21,506 nucleotides of DNA from a virus. Both the position numbers and the translations under genes were made by a program. Of the stretch, positions 9,094-19,115 are shown one piece after another. The stretch is from IMG/VR virus record IMGVR_UViG_3300021961_000735, positions 1 through 21,506 of that record; one strand, written 5' to 3'. The first letter of the stretch is position 1. Every line of letters starts with the position of its first letter. The notes beneath the pieces were generated by a model. That model ran no database searches and had not been told where the DNA came from. It was given only the letters and a program-made list of their open reading frames with translations.

Positions 9094-9441
9094 ATGCCTG
9101 CTCCCGCAGCACTGAGCGCCATCGAACGCCTCCGCAAGGCGGCCAACCTGGAGCCCACCAAAGTAGTAGTCACGTTGTCCGATGGCAGCGATTTTGAGTT
9201 GTGGAGAACCCCACTGACTGCTGCCGAACGTGAGAAGGCCCAAAAACAGGCTAAATCTGATGACGCTAATGCTTTTGCTCTCCAACTATTGATTAACAAG
9301 GCTCTTGACCAGAACGGTACTCGCCTTTTTAACGCTGGCGAAATCGACGTACTTAAAAACGAAGTCAAAGACAAGGACCTTCAGGCCTTGATGCTGGCGG
9401 TGATTAGTGAGGATGCCGAGCCTATTGACCCAAAGAGCTAA
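9094..9441 (+). CDS. Tail assembly chaperone, gpG-like
   Basis: A 115-residue protein between tail tube and tape measure genes, the position of lambda gpG. It is helical, with an N-terminal beta segment (TKVVVTLSDGSDFELWRTPL) and charged helices (TAAEREKAQKQAKSDD, KDKDLQALMLAVISED). Such chaperones coat the tape measure before tube polymerisation and are not part of the virion. It ends just after the slippery heptamer CCCAAAG, and a second reading frame continues in -1. No strong ribosome binding site is seen before the ATG. Confidence 0.82.
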   Translation: MPAPAALSAIERLRKAANLEPTKVVVTLSDGSDFELWRTPLTAAEREKAQKQAKSDDANAFALQLLINKALDQNGTRLFNAGEIDVLKNEVKDKDLQALMLAVISEDAEPIDPKS

Positions 9442-12047: not shown

Positions 12048-12388
12048 TGGCTACTTTCCCTGATTTCGACCCTGTTTACAGCGCCAGTAAGACCAGCAAT
12101 CCAGCTGTTCGCACGGTGCAATTTGGCGACGGCTACCAGCAACGCCTGACTTATGGCCTCAATCAAAACCCGAAGGAATGGCGGCTGACCTTCAACGTCA
12201 CGGATACCGAAGCGGACACTATCGAGACCTTCCTAAACGCTCGTGCCGCCGACTCCGCAAGTTTTGACTGGAGCCCACCGGACACGGCATCGTCTTACAA
12301 GTGGGTCTGTCCCAGCTGGACCCGTGAGATGTACAACCACCAGCGCAGCCGTATCGACGTAACTTTCCGGCAGGTATTTGAACCCTAA
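12047..12388 (+). CDS. Minor tail protein, lambda gpM-like
   Basis: A 113-residue protein close to the lambda gpM length. It has the family pattern: an early PAVRTVQFGDGYQQRL segment, then NPKEWRLTFNVTD, FLNARAADSASFDWSPP and a closing RIDVTFRQVFEP. gpM-type proteins form the distal tail ring beneath the tube and start the tip baseplate. The gene overlaps the tape measure stop (TGATG) and the next start (TAATG), so it is translated in the same chain. Assignment is strong on sequence and order. Confidence 0.9.
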   Translation: MATFPDFDPVYSASKTSNPAVRTVQFGDGYQQRLTYGLNQNPKEWRLTFNVTDTEADTIETFLNARAADSASFDWSPPDTASSYKWVCPSWTREMYNHQRSRIDVTFRQVFEP

Positions 12389-14010
12389 TGGCATATTCCG
12401 CTTGGGCTAGCTCTACCGCTTACGTCGTTGGCGACATCGTTCGGGCTTCTGTGCTCCAAGCCAGCGGTCTAGTCTTCCGTTGTACGACTGCTGGTACATC
12501 AGCCGCCACTGAACCAGTCTGGGGCACCGACATTGGCAGCACCGTCACCGATAACACGGTGGTGTGGACAGCAGTTGCCAGCGCCTTTGAAGAACTGGCG
12601 CAGATCGCCCCGAGCGCAATTATTGAGCTGTTTGAGATGACGCTGGATGCCACGTTGCATGGCAGCAGTGACACCTATCGCTGGCACAACGGCACAAATG
12701 CGGCAGTTACGGGCAACATCGTCTGGAACGGCAATTCTTACGTGCGGTTGCCGATCAAAGCCGAAGGATTTGAGTATACAAATACAGGCACGTTGCCACG
12801 TCCAACGTTGACGATCAGCAATCTTGATGGCGTTATTACTACATTGCTGCTGCTGGTGAATGCCACTACATCGGGCAATGATCTTGGTGGCGCAACCGTT
12901 AAGCGCATTCGGACACTGAAAAAATATCTTGATGGCGAAGCTGGCGCGGATCCTCACGCCAAATTTCCAGACGAGATCTGGTATGTGGATCGAAAGGCTA
13001 ATGAATCCCGCGATTCCGTAAGTTTTGAGCTTGCCAGCAAATTTGATTTGGCTGGTGTGATGATTCCAAAGCGGCAGGTTATCGCCAATTTATGCCAATG
13101 GCGTTATCGGAGTACCGAATGCGGATATACAGGCAGTATTTATTTTGATGCCAATGACAATAACGTTGCAACGCTAGCCGCCGATACATGCGGCAAAAGG
13201 ATCAGCAGTTGCAACGCACGTTTTGGGCAAGTAGTACGAACAGGAACAGTAACCAGCGGAAGCAATCAGCTTGTCGTCAGCGGTGATGTATTTGATATTG
13301 AGACGGGTTCACCTGTTAAGGGATTTGGCGTACCGAGTGGCACCACAGTAAGCAGCGTATCTGGCACCACGGTGACAATGAGCGCCAACGCCACGGCGAC
13401 TACATCGCTAACAAAAACAGGCACGATTCAGAGTAATCGTGTGGATTTAATTGTCAGTGATACGACTGGCATTGTGATTGGCATGAAAGTTGCTGGACCC
13501 AATGTGCCGTCTAATGCCACCGTTCTATCTATCTCGGGCACGACATTAACGCTTGGTCAGCCATGGGATCTGTGGGATACGTTGACTGCAGTTGGCACGA
13601 AATCAGGGCGACTGGTGCCAGTGGTAACACGAGTGACGGTTTATGAACAACGCAGTGTCTTTCTGGGAAGAACAATACAAGTTCCTGTTGGATATGAAAA
13701 TGTTGCAGAACCACTCACCACTCAAATGGATGTGACTGATGCAACCTCATTGGCGGTTGGTCAGTATTTGACTGGTCCTGGTATACCCAAGAGTGCTAAG
13801 GCGCAGATTTCAGCTATCAGTGGAACTACGTTGACCCTGAATTACTCAGCGCCGAACTCCGGTGCGTTATATAACAGCTACGAGTTTTATCAGGTGCCTA
13901 CATTTACGTCTCAGACCTATACATTTTCAGCACCAGATCAGAGTTATACATTCAGGAACACCACGGCGCTTCCGTTTGGCTCGTTCCCTAGTGCAGGACT
14001 AATCCGATGA
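12388..14010 (+). CDS. Minor tail protein, lambda gpL-like, with extra modules
   Basis: A 540-residue protein, about twice the usual size. Residues 1-65 (AWASSTAYVVGDIVR, LVFRCTTAGTSAATEPVW) resemble a small carbohydrate-binding module of the CBM5/12 type. The gpL core follows from about 66, including the segment LASKFDLAGVMIPKRQV. Four cysteines, C236, C245, C268 and C275 (spacing C-x8-C-x22-C-x6-C), form the cluster that binds an iron-sulphur centre in gpL proteins. In ordinary gpL the end follows soon after. Here about 245 residues intervene between CNARFG and the closing LPFGSFPSAGLIR, made of three imperfect repeats with 'G.GIP..T.V..ISGTTLTL' cores (about 285-342, 343-403, 441-505) and a Tyr/Thr/Gln-rich part. 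The protein links the tail-tip ring to gpJ; the additions probably face outward and may bind cell-surface glycans. Confidence 0.88.
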   Translation: MAYSAWASSTAYVVGDIVRASVLQASGLVFRCTTAGTSAATEPVWGTDIGSTVTDNTVVWTAVASAFEELAQIAPSAIIELFEMTLDATLHGSSDTYRWHNGTNAAVTGNIVWNGNSYVRLPIKAEGFEYTNTGTLPRPTLTISNLDGVITTLLLLVNATTSGNDLGGATVKRIRTLKKYLDGEAGADPHAKFPDEIWYVDRKANESRDSVSFELASKFDLAGVMIPKRQVIANLCQWRYRSTECGYTGSIYFDANDNNVATLAADTCGKRISSCNARFGQVVRTGTVTSGSNQLVVSGDVFDIETGSPVKGFGVPSGTTVSSVSGTTVTMSANATATTSLTKTGTIQSNRVDLIVSDTTGIVIGMKVAGPNVPSNATVLSISGTTLTLGQPWDLWDTLTAVGTKSGRLVPVVTRVTVYEQRSVFLGRTIQVPVGYENVAEPLTTQMDVTDATSLAVGQYLTGPGIPKSAKAQISAISGTTLTLNYSAPNSGALYNSYEFYQVPTFTSQTYTFSAPDQSYTFRNTTALPFGSFPSAGLIR

Positions 14011-14720
14011 AGTTGACAGATTCTCTGCAGCAGGCAGCCCTGGAGCACGCGAAACAAGTTTTCCCGCAAGAGTCATGTGGCCTGATAGCAGTCGTCAAAG
14101 GTCGTAGACGCTATTTTCCATGTCGTAATACAGCGGAAACTCCAGACGAGCACTTTGTCTTAGATCCGTCTGATTATGCCGCTGTTGAGGACCAAGGTGA
14201 AATCGTCGCTGTGGTACATAGCCACCCCAAAACGAATCCAGAGCCATCTCAGGCAGATCGCGTCGCGTGTGAAAAATCAGGCTTGCCCTGGTTCATCGTC
14301 AATCCGCAGACAGAACAGTGGGACCAATGCCAGCCGAGTGGTTTGGAATTGCCTTATGTCGGACGTGAATTTGTATTTGGCATTGTGGACTGCTACAGCT
14401 TGTGCCGAGACTGGTATAAGCGCGAGCTGGGACTGGAATTGAGCGAATATGACCGCCGCGATAAATTCTGGTTACGGGGTGAGAATTTATACCTAGACAA
14501 TTTTGCCAAAGAAGGTTTTCATCCAATTCCGCTGGATGAACTGCAGTATGGCGACGCAATTCTGATGCAGCTTCAGTCACCGCTGCCAAACCACGCGGCA
14601 ATCTACCTAGGTGATCAGTTGATTTTGCACCACGTTCAAGGTCGCCTCAGTAGTCGGGACATCTACGGCGGTTATTATTGGAAGAGCACCGCGCTGGCTG
14701 TACGGCATGAAAGTCGTTAA
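14007..14720 (+). CDS. Tail-tip JAMM/NlpC-P60 peptidase, lambda gpK-like
   Basis: A 237-residue two-domain protein. Domain 1 (about 1-110) is a JAMM/MPN metalloprotease-like domain with E22 (QESCG), H71 and H73 (VVHSHP), S81 and D84 (PSQAD), the full zinc-binding set. Domain 2 (about 115-237) is NlpC/P60-like, with catalytic C129 (GIVDCYSLC), H196 (NHAAIYLG) and a following LHHVQGR. Both active sites look intact. In lambda-like tails, gpK helps tip assembly and probably digests peptidoglycan cross-links at infection. The gene overlaps gpL by 4 nt (ATGA) and the next gene by 14 nt. Confidence 0.92.
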   Translation: MKLTDSLQQAALEHAKQVFPQESCGLIAVVKGRRRYFPCRNTAETPDEHFVLDPSDYAAVEDQGEIVAVVHSHPKTNPEPSQADRVACEKSGLPWFIVNPQTEQWDQCQPSGLELPYVGREFVFGIVDCYSLCRDWYKRELGLELSEYDRRDKFWLRGENLYLDNFAKEGFHPIPLDELQYGDAILMQLQSPLPNHAAIYLGDQLILHHVQGRLSSRDIYGGYYWKSTALAVRHESR

Positions 14721-15354
14721 GGTCTACGGCGCACTCCGCAAGAAGCTGGGGCAGTGCCGCTTTGAATTTGAAGCCGCCACACCAGCCGAGGCTCTAAAAG
14801 CACTGTGCGTTAATTTTCCAGGACTTCAGAAATGGTTAGTTGATAGCGAGAACGATGGCGTTGGTTATCGGGTAACTGTTGGAAAGGAAAAAATTACCAA
14901 TAGTGATGCGAGCGGATTAGTTCTGCCTTGGAGTGAAAAAGAAGTTTTCAGTATTACGCCAGTGCTGACTGGTGCCGGTGGTGGAACGGGTCAGATTTTG
15001 GCTGGCGTCGGTTTGATTGCATTGGCAATTATTACGGGTCCTGCAGGCGCGGGTTTTCTTGGTTTGGGTGCAGGATTTCTATCGGGCGCGACCGCAGCGG
15101 CTGTGTCTACTACTTTGGGTCTGATCGGTACATCTCTGCTGTTTGGCGGGATTGCCCAGGCTCTTTCGCCGTCACCCGTCAACTCAACCGCCACATTCGA
15201 GCGTGGACGTGACGCCGCGAAATTTGAATCCTTTACGTTTTCGGGGATTGTCAACACTGAAAAGCAAGGTCTGCCAGTGCCCGTAATCTATGGGCGATGC
15301 TTCACGGGTTCCTCCGTTATTTCTGTCGGCATCGACGTTGATCAACTGGTATGA
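14707..15354 (+). CDS. Tail assembly protein, lambda gpI-like
   Basis: A 215-residue protein in the gpI position. The N-terminus (VKVYGALRKKLGQCRFEFEA, then TPAEALKALCVNFPGL) has the ubiquitin-like/MoaD-like fold pattern of gpI. About residues 95-150 form a long glycine- and alanine-rich hydrophobic region (ILAGVGLIALAIITG, GLIGTSLLFGGIAQALSP) that may cross or disturb a membrane. The C-terminal part (FSGIVNTEKQGLPVPVIYGR) is also standard. It is needed for tip assembly and may be processed or lost from the mature virion in lambda. It overlaps gpK by 14 nt and gpJ by 4 nt (ATGA). Confidence 0.88.
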   Translation: MKVVKVYGALRKKLGQCRFEFEAATPAEALKALCVNFPGLQKWLVDSENDGVGYRVTVGKEKITNSDASGLVLPWSEKEVFSITPVLTGAGGGTGQILAGVGLIALAIITGPAGAGFLGLGAGFLSGATAAAVSTTLGLIGTSLLFGGIAQALSPSPVNSTATFERGRDAAKFESFTFSGIVNTEKQGLPVPVIYGRCFTGSSVISVGIDVDQLV

Positions 15355-18300
15355 CACGCATTGTTGGCGCTGGTGGTGGCGGTGGCGGCGGTGGCTGCTT
15401 TCTGGGTCATACCCCAGTGGCAACGCCTGATGGCAGGCGCCGAATTGACGAGCTGAAGCCCGGCGATCACGTCCTGAGCTTTGACGATCAAGGCATCATC
15501 CACAGCGCCAAAATCCTCAAGGTTCACGAGCACGAAAACGAAAAGGTCGTTCGCTACAAGCTCTGGGGCGGTGATCACCTTGATGCCACCCCTAACCATT
15601 GGGTGCTGAATCAATTCAACGCTTTCGTTGAGATTGGCACGCTGGGCAGCGATGACTGCCTTGTTGACTGGAACAACCACCTCCGCCCAATTGTCGGCAA
15701 GGAAGACCTTGGTACGGACACTGTCTACAACCTGACCGTTGAGGGGCATCACACTTTTATTGCTGGCGGCATCCGTGTTCACAACGCCGGTCTGGGCTTA
15801 GGTATTGCGGGCTCAGGTGGTGGCGGCGGCGGAGGCGGCGGCAAAGGTGGAGGCGGCGGTGGAGCTGGACAACGCACGCCGACTGAAGCCGATGATTCGC
15901 TGCAATCGGTCCAGTTTGCCAATGTGCTGGATCTACTGGGCGAAGGCGAAATTGAGGGAATTGAGAACGGCAACAAAGGGATTTACTTAGACGGCACGCC
16001 TGTTGTTGACGCCAATGACGTTGCAAATTTCACTGGCTATACGATTGTCACGCGCAACGGCACACAAGATCAAACCGTAATTCCAGACATTATTGGTACT
16101 GAAGACGAAAACATTGTCAACGTTGAAGTTGCAAACGGCTTTCCCGTAACACGCACGATTGCCAACAACAACGTCGATCGTATCCGCGTCACGATTGTTA
16201 TCCCAAGCCTGCAGCAGTTTGAAACCAACGGGGACATCAATGCTACGAGCGTTGGTATCGCCATCCAAGTTCAGTACAACGGCGGCGGCTTCAATACCGT
16301 TGTTAGCGACACGATTGCCGGTAAAACCAGCAGCCGTTACCAGCGAGATTATGTATTTGAGTTAAACGGTACATTTCCCGTTGACATCAAAGTTCTTCGT
16401 ACATCAAGCGACGCAACATCAGCCCGCACTCAAAACGAAACTTACTGGTACAGCTACACACAAATCATTGACCAACGTTTTCGGTATCCAAACTCTGCGC
16501 TGTCGTTTCTGCGATTTGATTCGCGCCAATTCAACAATATCCCAAGCCGCAAATATCTTGTTCGCGGCTTAAAGGTTGCCATTCCCAGCAACGCCACCGT
16601 TGATACAACTACTTATATCGGACGTATTACTTACTCCGGTGTCTGGGACGGCACGTTTTCTGCAGCGACCTGGACGAATGATCCAGCCTGGTGTCTCTGG
16701 GACTTGTTAACCAATACTCGCTATGGAGCATCCATCCCAGCCAGCAGTTTGGATCGCTATGACTTTTATCAGATCAGTCAGTATTGCAACGCCCTTGTTG
16801 ATAACGGTAAAGGTGGATTGGAGCCGCGCTTCTCTTGCAACTTACTGATTAACAGCCGCGACGAGGTTTACAACGTCATCCAAGAGATGACCAGCCTTTT
16901 TCGTGGCATTGCTTATTACGGTGCCGGATCGCTGGTACTGCAGCAGGACAAGCCATCTGACGCCCAATACCTCTTGGGACCAAGCAATGTCGTTGACGGC
17001 ATTTTTGTTTATAGCGGCACTTCGCAGAAAGCTCGTCATACAACGGCGACTGTTGCCTATCAAACTTACGAATCGCTTGGCGAAGTTCAGTACGAATACA
17101 TTGAAGACGCCGATGCTGTCGCCAGGTACGGCATCATCAATAAAGACATCAAGGCACTTGGTTGTTACAGCCAAGGTCAAGCCCATCGCGCTGGTAAGTG
17201 GGCACTGCTGAGCGAACAGAACCTGACAGAGACCGTCACTTTCTCTGTTGCGATTGACAGCGGCATTGTGCTTCGCCCTGGCATGGTGATCAGCATTGCC
17301 GATCCAATGAAGGCTGGCACCCGTCGCAGCGGTCGTGTCACCAGCGCCACCACTCAAATCATCACGGTCGATAGCTCTAGCAACTTGTCGGTCAATTTGG
17401 CAAATAGCCCAACCATCTCAGTGATGATGCCGACTGGGTTGGTGGAAACCAGAACGATCAGCAGCATTTCAGGTCGCAATATCACTGTCGCCAACGTTTT
17501 CAGTGAAGCACCCAATTCAAATGCTGTGTGGTTGATTCAGACCACTGACATAGAGGCGCAAACGTTCCGCGTACTCAATGTTGCAGAGAGCGAGGAGGGA
17601 GTGTATGGCATCACTGCACTGGCATACAACGAATCAATTTATGCCGCCATTGAAGATGACCTTGTAATTACTACGCCAGACATTTCAAATCTCAGCGAAA
17701 TACCCGGATCGGTTACTAACATTGGCGGTTACGAATACATATACGTAGAAGCAAATAGCGCCCTTGTTGGTTTTCAACTGGACTGGACACCACCATCAGG
17801 TGCGCTCAATGGTTACGTCGTTCAGTACCGAATTGATAACGATAACTGGAGCCGTTTCAATACAACAACGCCTTCGGCAGACCTCAAGAATTTGCGCGAT
17901 GGAACGCTGTATGTCCAAATTCAGGTTGAAAACTCAATCGGTAAAACGGGTCCACTGTCTACGGCAACTTTCAACCTTGTCGGAAAAACTGCTAGCCCGG
18001 CTGACGTTAAAAATCTGCAGCTAGAAATCCTCAGTGACAATACGGCTCGATTGAACTGGGAGCCGTCGTTTGAAATTGACGTTGTAAATGGCGGCGCTGT
18101 TTATGTGCGTCATTCTGCGCTGACCGACGGCAGTGCTAGCTGGAACGACTCTGTTGACCTTGTACCGGCGTTGCCTGGTAATGCGACTTCAGCAACTATT
18201 CCACTGATTGAAGGCGAAATTTTTGTCCGTTTCATTGATGATGGCGGGCGTCTAAGTCCCAATGAAACCAGCATCATCATTGATCTGCCTGATACACAGG

Positions 18301-19115
18301 GCAGGCTTGCTGTTCAGACACGTAGGGAAGACCAAGATACGCCACCATTCCAGGGCAATCAAATTGACGTTTTTTACGATGAGGGTTACGACGCTTTAAC
18401 GCTGGATGGCACAGAAGATTTAGACGATGTTGCTGATGTTGATGCCATTACGTCGTTCGATTTTATGGGCGACATTACGGAAACCGGGACATACGACTTC
18501 TTAAACACGCTTGATCTTGGCGCTAGCTACTCACTTGATTTGAGCCGTCATTTCGTTACTCGTGGTTTCCTGCCTAATGACACGTTGGATGGTCGCTCCG
18601 GTTTAGTTGACACATGGCTGAACTGGGATGGAGCTGATGTCAACCGCGTTAATGCTGTATTGAAAGTCCGCACGACAGATGATGATCCTTCTGGCACTCC
18701 AACGTGGTCTAGTTATCAGGAGTTCATCAGCGGAACTTATAAAGCCCGCGCTTTCCAGTTCAGAGCTGAGTTGCAATCTAACGACCCAGCACAGAACATT
18801 TTGATTGATGAGCTGGGGTATACCGCGACTTTCCAGCGGCGCACTGAAAACAGCGTCGGCACGATTTCCAGCGGTGCTGGCGCCAAGGTTGTCACGTTCG
18901 ATAAAGCCTTCTTTACGGGCACCAGTGTTTTGGGTGGCGTGAACGCCTATGTACCCAGCGTCGGCATTACAGCGTTAAATATGGGCAGCGGCGAATACTT
19001 TGAGGTGACCAGCATCAGCAGCACTGGTTTTACGGTGACGTTCAAGAACTCAGGCGGGACGGCGATTGACCGTAATTTCAACTGGAGTGCGGTTGGCTAT
19101 GGCCGTGGCAGCTAA
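15351..19115 (+). CDS. Host specificity / tail tip attachment protein, lambda gpJ-like, with Hint domain
   Basis: The 1254-residue protein forms the central tip and contacts the receptor. Residues 1-15 end in eight glycines. 16-145 is a Hint (intein-like) domain, described separately. 146-175 is again glycine-rich. The gpJ body starts near 176 with RTPTEADDSLQSVQFANVLD and LLGEGEIEGI, directly comparable to the beginning of lambda gpJ. The hub domains follow to about 780, with characteristic LDRYDFYQISQYCNALVDNG and QKARHTTATVAYQ segments. Two fibronectin type III-like domains lie at about 800-880 and 884-980. The C-terminal portion (about 1160-1254) is the likely receptor-binding end (GYGRGS terminus). 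Without the Hint domain and glycine tracts the length is normal. It overlaps gpI by 4 nt and ends the overlapping tip operon. Which host receptor it binds cannot be told. Confidence 0.92.
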   Translation: MTRIVGAGGGGGGGGCFLGHTPVATPDGRRRIDELKPGDHVLSFDDQGIIHSAKILKVHEHENEKVVRYKLWGGDHLDATPNHWVLNQFNAFVEIGTLGSDDCLVDWNNHLRPIVGKEDLGTDTVYNLTVEGHHTFIAGGIRVHNAGLGLGIAGSGGGGGGGGGKGGGGGGAGQRTPTEADDSLQSVQFANVLDLLGEGEIEGIENGNKGIYLDGTPVVDANDVANFTGYTIVTRNGTQDQTVIPDIIGTEDENIVNVEVANGFPVTRTIANNNVDRIRVTIVIPSLQQFETNGDINATSVGIAIQVQYNGGGFNTVVSDTIAGKTSSRYQRDYVFELNGTFPVDIKVLRTSSDATSARTQNETYWYSYTQIIDQRFRYPNSALSFLRFDSRQFNNIPSRKYLVRGLKVAIPSNATVDTTTYIGRITYSGVWDGTFSAATWTNDPAWCLWDLLTNTRYGASIPASSLDRYDFYQISQYCNALVDNGKGGLEPRFSCNLLINSRDEVYNVIQEMTSLFRGIAYYGAGSLVLQQDKPSDAQYLLGPSNVVDGIFVYSGTSQKARHTTATVAYQTYESLGEVQYEYIEDADAVARYGIINKDIKALGCYSQGQAHRAGKWALLSEQNLTETVTFSVAIDSGIVLRPGMVISIADPMKAGTRRSGRVTSATTQIITVDSSSNLSVNLANSPTISVMMPTGLVETRTISSISGRNITVANVFSEAPNSNAVWLIQTTDIEAQTFRVLNVAESEEGVYGITALAYNESIYAAIEDDLVITTPDISNLSEIPGSVTNIGGYEYIYVEANSALVGFQLDWTPPSGALNGYVVQYRIDNDNWSRFNTTTPSADLKNLRDGTLYVQIQVENSIGKTGPLSTATFNLVGKTASPADVKNLQLEILSDNTARLNWEPSFEIDVVNGGAVYVRHSALTDGSASWNDSVDLVPALPGNATSATIPLIEGEIFVRFIDDGGRLSPNETSIIIDLPDTQGRLAVQTRREDQDTPPFQGNQIDVFYDEGYDALTLDGTEDLDDVADVDAITSFDFMGDITETGTYDFLNTLDLGASYSLDLSRHFVTRGFLPNDTLDGRSGLVDTWLNWDGADVNRVNAVLKVRTTDDDPSGTPTWSSYQEFISGTYKARAFQFRAELQSNDPAQNILIDELGYTATFQRRTENSVGTISSGAGAKVVTFDKAFFTGTSVLGGVNAYVPSVGITALNMGSGEYFEVTSISSTGFTVTFKNSGGTAIDRNFNWSAVGYGRGS
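15396..15785 (+). other. Intein-like Hint domain (BIL-A-like) inside gpJ
   Basis: Residues 16-145 of the gpJ protein (130 aa) show all splicing-domain blocks. Block A is CFLGHTPVATPDG with nucleophile C16, followed by RRRIDELKPGDHVLSFD. Block B is DATPNHWVL with T80 and H83. Block F is DTVYNLTVEGHHTFIAGG. Block G is IRVHN with H144 and N145. The next residue is A146, where classical inteins have Cys, Ser or Thr; this fits bacterial intein-like domains, which can cleave at either end and splice inefficiently or by another route. No homing endonuclease lies between blocks B and F. It is flanked on both sides by poly-glycine in gpJ. Activity is expected from the intact residues but not shown. 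Confidence 0.88.

Follow-up and report, generated by a model that had tools for sequence, protein, structure and literature searches.

Bacterial intein-like (BIL) domains, the majority from variable proteins of bacteria, have been known for more than 20 years. Those of type A are found in the variable regions of non-conserved bacterial proteins, a habit that is descriptive and reflects no mechanistic requirement (PMC7765530). They form an N-terminal thioester and are cleaved at their C-terminus by Asn cyclisation, with cleavage products dominant, and ligation can follow from attack of the freed amine on the thioester (PMC4031507). The missing +1 nucleophile is a trait of the family (PMC7664689), whose members cut, and can splice, without it (PMC4031507; PMC7664689). 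Tetrahymena BIL2 passes a Ubl to a lysine, forming an isopeptide bond without ATP, and zinc at its His48 and His125 switches the catalytic His (PMC8616854). In phage lambda, the N-terminal hub domains of the tail-tip protein gpJ lie in the last tail ring beside gpL and gpM (PMC10721106); hub domain II and gpL constitute that ring, gpM adjoins it and gpI threads through gpJ (PMC10721106, PMC11101478). For JAB domains, Iyer and colleagues proposed that they trim the tail Ubl at its glycine (PMC1779556).

Here we analyze a gpJ that carries a BIL-like domain at a fixed tail-tip site, in a widespread group of uncultured phages, under strong selection and with close relatives that lack it. This natural plus/minus pair allows the direct question of what a BIL domain does for its host protein and an active domain would mean that self-cutting is how some phage tail-tip proteins mature. 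We found no report of a Hint or intein domain in a tail-tip protein in the open-access literature.

The gpJ gene and its N-terminal domain

The window, 21,506 nucleotides in length, is the 21.5-kb virus sequence of IMG/VR record IMGVR_UViG_3300021961_000735. Its genes follow the lambda-type morphogenesis order of terminase, portal, tail chaperone, tape measure, gpM, gpL, gpK, gpI, gpJ and tail fibre, the last of these, downstream of gpJ, carrying an S74 chaperone. The nearest cultured relative of the portal and terminase is the distant cyanophage S-2L (38-42%), with Vibrio phages equally close for the terminase, and that of gpJ is Prochlorococcus phage MED4-117 (38%). The host is probably a cyanobacterium, because one cyanobacterial MAG contig carries a Hint-bearing gpJ with an N-terminus 65% identical to that of this record. 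The gpG-like tail chaperone (9094-9441) has a slippery CCCAAAG at 9429-9435, close to the end of the gene, past which a gpT-like extension (ELSAELRRDNWLMLQFGIAKELGL...) in the -1 frame reaches about 9626, site and extension together matching a programmed frameshift of the lambda G/GT type. The gpL-like protein (12388-14010) extends some 250 residues beyond its Phage_tail_L domain at the C-terminus, with repeated VSGTTV-type segments.

The gpJ ORF (15351-19115, + strand) encodes 1254 residues, and its start codon lies in an ATGA overlap with gpI. A sequence-only reading of the window had described in it a 130-residue domain with Cys16 as first residue and TPNH, HHTF and VHN motifs, with eight glycines before it, Ala at +1, no endonuclease and a conventional gpJ body downstream. 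Translation of the ORF confirms the domain, its motifs and its flanking residues, and the body is identified by phrog_31 (E 3e-227), by additional FNIII-A_GpJ and Phage-tail_3 matches and by the K-I-J gene order. After Ala146 the protein continues GLGLGIAGSGGGGGGGGGKGGGGGG (Table 1).

Table 1. Location of the gpJ features and neighbouring genes in the window
Feature	Position	Strand	Remark
gpK, JAB + NlpC/P60 peptidase domains	14007..14720	+	neighbour
gpI, N-terminal MoaD/Urm1-like (Ubl) fold, tail PVLTGAGGG	14707..15354	+	ATGA overlap with gpJ; neighbour
N-terminal stub of gpJ, residues 1-15, MTRIVGAGGGGGGGG	15351..15395	+	copy of native gpJ N-terminal motif
Direct repeat, left copy, 39 nt, glycine-codon tract	15360..15398	+	final triplet is the Cys16 codon
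Hint / type A BIL domain, 130 aa, residues 16-145	15396..15785	+	intein profiles, model, structure comparison
Cys16 (domain Cys1), predicted thioester nucleophile	15396..15398	+	invariant
TPNH, block B, residues 80-83 (Thr80, His83)	15588..15599	+	invariant
His134, block F His (HHTF, residues 133-136)	15750..15752	+	invariant in correctly parsed domains
His144-Asn145 (VHN, 143-145), predicted C-terminal cleavage residues	15780..15785	+	invariant in correctly parsed domains
Ala146 (+1), predicted mature gpJ N-terminus if C-cleaved	15786..15788	+	Ala in 160/163 domains
Second native-motif copy, GLGLG-IAGSGGGGGGGGGKGGGGGGAG	15789..15875	+	Lys165 at 15843-15845
Direct repeat, right copy, 79% identical to left	15804..15842	+	
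gpJ body: hub domains, FNIII, C-terminal part	15876..19115	+	phrog_31, domain profiles

Profile searches uphold the Hint similarity claimed in that reading, with both intein models passing their cut-offs (TIGR01445 intein_Nterm, 30.0-34.9 bits against 24.5; TIGR01443 intein_Cterm, 21.1-26.0 bits against 15.6); the Pfam Hint and Intein_splicing models score near or slightly under their gathering thresholds. Against solved structures, phmmer matches the Mtu RecA intein (E 6e-6), and a profile of the family places the Clostridium thermocellum BIL domain 2lwy at the top (E 1.4e-17) and also matches Tetrahymena BIL2 (E 5e-11). The Hint fold is recovered by an AlphaFold2 model with pLDDT of about 90-98 across residues 20-140 and low confidence in the glycine flanks. 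VIA-align yields Z values of 20-22 to the DnaB, RecA and gp41-1 mini-inteins, BIL domains and Hedgehog Hint (20.6 across 132 residues to 2lwy), and the top Foldseek matches are Tetrahymena BIL2. No endonuclease profile matches inside the domain. Residues 16-145 of gpJ are a complete Hint domain without endonuclease, and its type A BIL character, also put forward in the sequence-only reading, is supported by 2lwy as best profile match, the Ala at +1 and the lack of an endonuclease.

Occurrence, conservation and exchange of the domain

Relatives were collected from IMG/VR, where scans returned 582 with the gpJ query, 344 with the Hint query and further ones with more divergent queries. The resulting set of 163 distinct gpJ-borne Hint domains derives from uncultured, partly redundant contigs and, because only the best 80 matches of each scan were kept, frequencies within it are not population estimates. 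We found no Hint-bearing gpJ among the 50,697 records of a phage collection (cultured phages), in which 22 records with Hint-like matches involve other proteins, including UvsW, terminase and portal, or unannotated ones. Cellular genomes yielded the one cyanobacterial MAG contig and one Flavobacterium MAG contig with a Hint outside gpJ. The latter encodes a 704-aa protein (L150:4709-6820) ending in a Hint domain 45% identical to that of the window, a possible cellular relative. On other phage contigs (L242-L244), a subtilisin-like protease contains, at the motif of its active-site serine, an intein-like domain whose +1 residue is Ser.

The domain lies at a constant position across the family, in the glycine-rich N-terminus of gpJ behind a stub of 9-19 residues, and is exactly 130 residues long in 161 of the 163 cases; the other two (L237 and L238) belong to a divergent lineage and read as 119 residues by pattern, their actual end being VHN followed by Lys. 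Gly precedes the domain in 162/163 cases, and the +1 residue is Ala in 160, Ser in one and Lys in two (L237, L238), followed by GL or GI in 159/163. In an alignment of 116 distinct domains, no variation occurs at C1, F2, TPNH or the final Asn, and the block-F His and the His-Asn pair are read in 114, the remaining two being misparsed at the C-terminus. Every residue needed for the type A BIL route is fixed in the family, across domains with up to about 40% divergence elsewhere. The median dN/dS of 0.106 (maximum 0.25; 845 Hint pairs) supports the action of purifying selection on these sequences. An invariant His (domain His46) falls outside the usual splicing blocks, and Cys103 of gpJ (domain Cys88, in DDCLVD, 15657-15659) is nearly invariant, yet corresponds to no known splicing residue. 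Inteins usually have Asp or Cys at block F:4; here the position is Asn (domain N112), and the coupling of steps may therefore be weak.

Comparison of gpJ homologues with and without the insertion, an approach suggested by the sequence-only reading, revealed that Hint-less N-termini begin with the motif that flanks the Hint domain. They read M-x(1-8)-I-x-G-A-G-G-G-G-K-G-G-G-G, as in L186 (MARIYGAGGGGGGGGGKGGGG), L166 (MTIIGAGGGGKGGGGS) and, among cultured phages, a Halomonas phage (IEGAGGGGKGGGG) and an Acinetobacter phage (IEGAGGGGSK), and in Hint-bearing gpJ the motif is present on both sides of the domain as IxG(A/S)GGGG...KGGGG. It is found in 153 of 158 stubs and 158 of 163 downstream flanks, and in L087 both copies share an unusual GASTGG. 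In a distant, AT-rich gpJ lineage (L236-L238, on contigs shared with L239-L241), a divergent Hint, 36% identical, splits a single motif (KGAG/C...HN/KGGGG) and has Lys at +1.

On a tree of 92 gpJ bodies (61 with and 31 without the domain), a quick tree with several long branches, Hint presence changes at least 12 times, gains and losses taken together, and six of these changes are forced by well-supported branches. The domain is dispensable, since it is absent from close gpJ relatives. A purely vertical history with gpJ is rejected both by identity correlations (r of 0.92 for gpI against gpJ, 0.35 for Hint against gpI and 0.42 for Hint against gpJ) and by the AU test, in which the Hint tree rejects the main gpJ clade (p 0.0016). 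Cassettes 91-95% identical in DNA are set between flanks that are 48-70% identical; in L031 and L098, for instance, the Hint shares 95% DNA identity, the upstream gpI 48% and the downstream gpJ 59%. Identity climbs within about 40 bases of the Hint start and drops about 70-90 bases past its end, and these breaks coincide with glycine-codon tracts. The steep fall at both cassette ends rejects slow evolution alone as the source of the similarity. To judge by these identity profiles, the Hint is a mobile cassette that moves between phages; the glycine-codon tracts would be its recombination arms, and the cassette is probably also lost through recombination in them, given that an exchange between the two motif copies would yield exactly the Hint-less N-terminus. 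This pattern suggests endonuclease-free movement of an intein-like domain via low-complexity glycine-codon tracts.

Predicted processing of the gpJ precursor

We consider it reasonably probable that precursor gpJ loses the domain, a mobile type A BIL cassette, by self-removal and is left with a native N-terminus. Cys16 would take up the acyl group of Gly15 as a thioester, Asn145, aided by His144, would cyclise and free the amino group of Ala146, and the thioester would then be hydrolysed or be attacked by Ala146, ligating the stub to the body. Both outcomes would produce a gpJ with the native IxGAGGGG...KGGGG N-terminus and take the 130-residue domain out of the crowded tail hub, and the cassette would spread among phages by recombination in its flanking glycine-codon tracts. 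We infer catalysis, the order of these steps and removal before virion completion; by analogy with the lambda hub, three additional 14-kDa domains would probably need to be shed while the tail assembles or earlier. Stub removal, or a mature gpJ starting at A146, is plausible, and a spliced product joining stub and body is allowed just as well. Because the C-side holds the full native motif, C-terminal cleavage alone would give a normal-looking gpJ (AGLGLG-IAGSGGGG...KGGGG), and ligation would leave the motif twice. Conservation of the stub favours ligation, and the habit of type A BILs favours cleavage. Counting against self-removal, the catalytic residues might also be conserved for a reaction that is slow or regulated, and the type A BILs so far described come from variable proteins of bacteria rather than from conserved structural proteins of phages (PMC7765530).

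True protein splicing, in which stub and body would always be joined (GGGG-AGLG) and the domain would be a harmless mini-intein relic whose sole job is leaving, is a possible but doubtful alternative. The stub motif is conserved as if kept in mature gpJ (82 of 84 stubs against 15 expected in shuffles, in an earlier, smaller set), the fixed -1 Gly and +1 Ala would present little steric hindrance to direct aminolysis, and in L236-L238 only joining would restore the divided KGAG/.../KGGGG. Yet cleavage products dominate among the type A BILs studied (PMC4031507), joining is unnecessary where the C-side already has the full motif, and stub conservation may reflect recombination or translation start instead of splicing. 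A folded, idle insert retained in gpJ would be tolerated by the flexible glycine site, but it accords poorly with cutting residues, -1 Gly and +1 Ala that are invariant while the domains differ by up to about 40%, and we regard it as improbable. The sequence-only reading had also raised self-cleavage timed to adsorption. Invariant His46 could permit metal or redox control of a cleavage delayed until adsorption or triggered by the host environment; this is nevertheless poorly supported and scarcely credible, for the Hint is dispensable among close relatives and the gpJ N-terminus is at the hub ring, in lambda far from the receptor-binding end (PMC10721106).

The neighbouring genes bring in a conceivable role in conjugation. 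The N-terminus of gpI has a MoaD/Urm1-like fold, and its Ubl tail VLTGAGGG (14962-14985) and the gpJ N-terminus RIVGAGGGG (15351-15395) have a VxGAG-type motif in common, as do gpI and gpJ in many phages, whether Hint-bearing or not, and the two may share a partner, for instance gpK. The Gly15 thioester could be passed to a lysine (Lys165 or one in another tail-tip protein), perhaps with the gpI Ubl and gpK JAB, so that gpK, gpI and gpJ would form an ATP-independent conjugation module in which the BIL would charge the Ubl-tail-like stub and pass it to a tail-tip lysine, and the gpK JAB would trim or reverse the product. Consistent with such a module are the stub-like gpI tail, the JAB domain of gpK, the Foldseek matches to BIL2, which makes ATP-free isopeptides (PMC8616854), and the alignment of the BIL2 zinc ligand His48 with invariant His46. 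However, the second ligand, His125, aligns with Asn112 (counting along the printed profile alignment), leaving a BIL2-like zinc site only half supported; the Hint has no fused Ubl; and Ubl gpI, JAB gpK and the lysine are equally present in Hint-less relatives. Since lambda-type tails generally have Ubl and JAB but not the Hint, a conjugation role is thinkable but very unlikely, both for the thioester transfer and for the three-gene module.

Comparison with known systems

Known phage inteins occupy conserved enzyme sites. The class 1 phage inteins (UvsW, terminase, portal and the L242-L244 protease) share the fold and splicing blocks of the gpJ Hint, which differs from them in its linker site and Ala +1 (Ser in L242-L244); a class 1 assignment is rejected on this Ala, found in place of Cys, Ser or Thr. 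The 130-residue length in 161/163 domains, with no endonuclease match in the domain, is not that of a homing intein. With Hedgehog Hint and pretoxin HINT domains the gpJ Hint shares the Gly-Cys-Phe start and the fold (Z about 20 to Hedgehog), and the PT-HINT profile matches 12/12 members tested. Unlike them, it is N-terminal in its protein and has a complete His-Asn end; neither a sterol region nor a downstream toxin was found, and a pretoxin Hint is rejected, as the gpJ body follows and a toxin domain is absent. BUBL1 BIL2 (6y75/6tmm) resembles it in fold, in the His at the zinc-ligand His48 position and in having a Ubl protein nearby. Here, by contrast, the Ubl belongs to the separate protein gpI, the second zinc His is Asn and, where BUBL-type proteins have a Ubl fused directly before Cys1, there is only the 9-19 residue stub.

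The lambda gpK/gpI/gpJ set is reproduced in gene order, gpJ body, JAB and NlpC domains of gpK and Ubl of gpI, with gpJ homology extending over the hub and FNIII regions. The closest counterpart of the domain itself is the C. thermocellum type A BIL 2lwy, which is likewise about 130-138 residues long, with a Hint fold, a His-Asn end, no endonuclease and Asn at block F:4. The Hint fold, the Cys1, TxxH, block-F His and His-Asn residues and the absence of a conserved Cys, Ser or Thr at +1 are those of type A BILs. In contrast to the BILs of that type, the gpJ Hint resides in a conserved phage tail-tip protein, but within a variable glycine linker, at one fixed site, with Ala fixed at +1 and exchange as a cassette.
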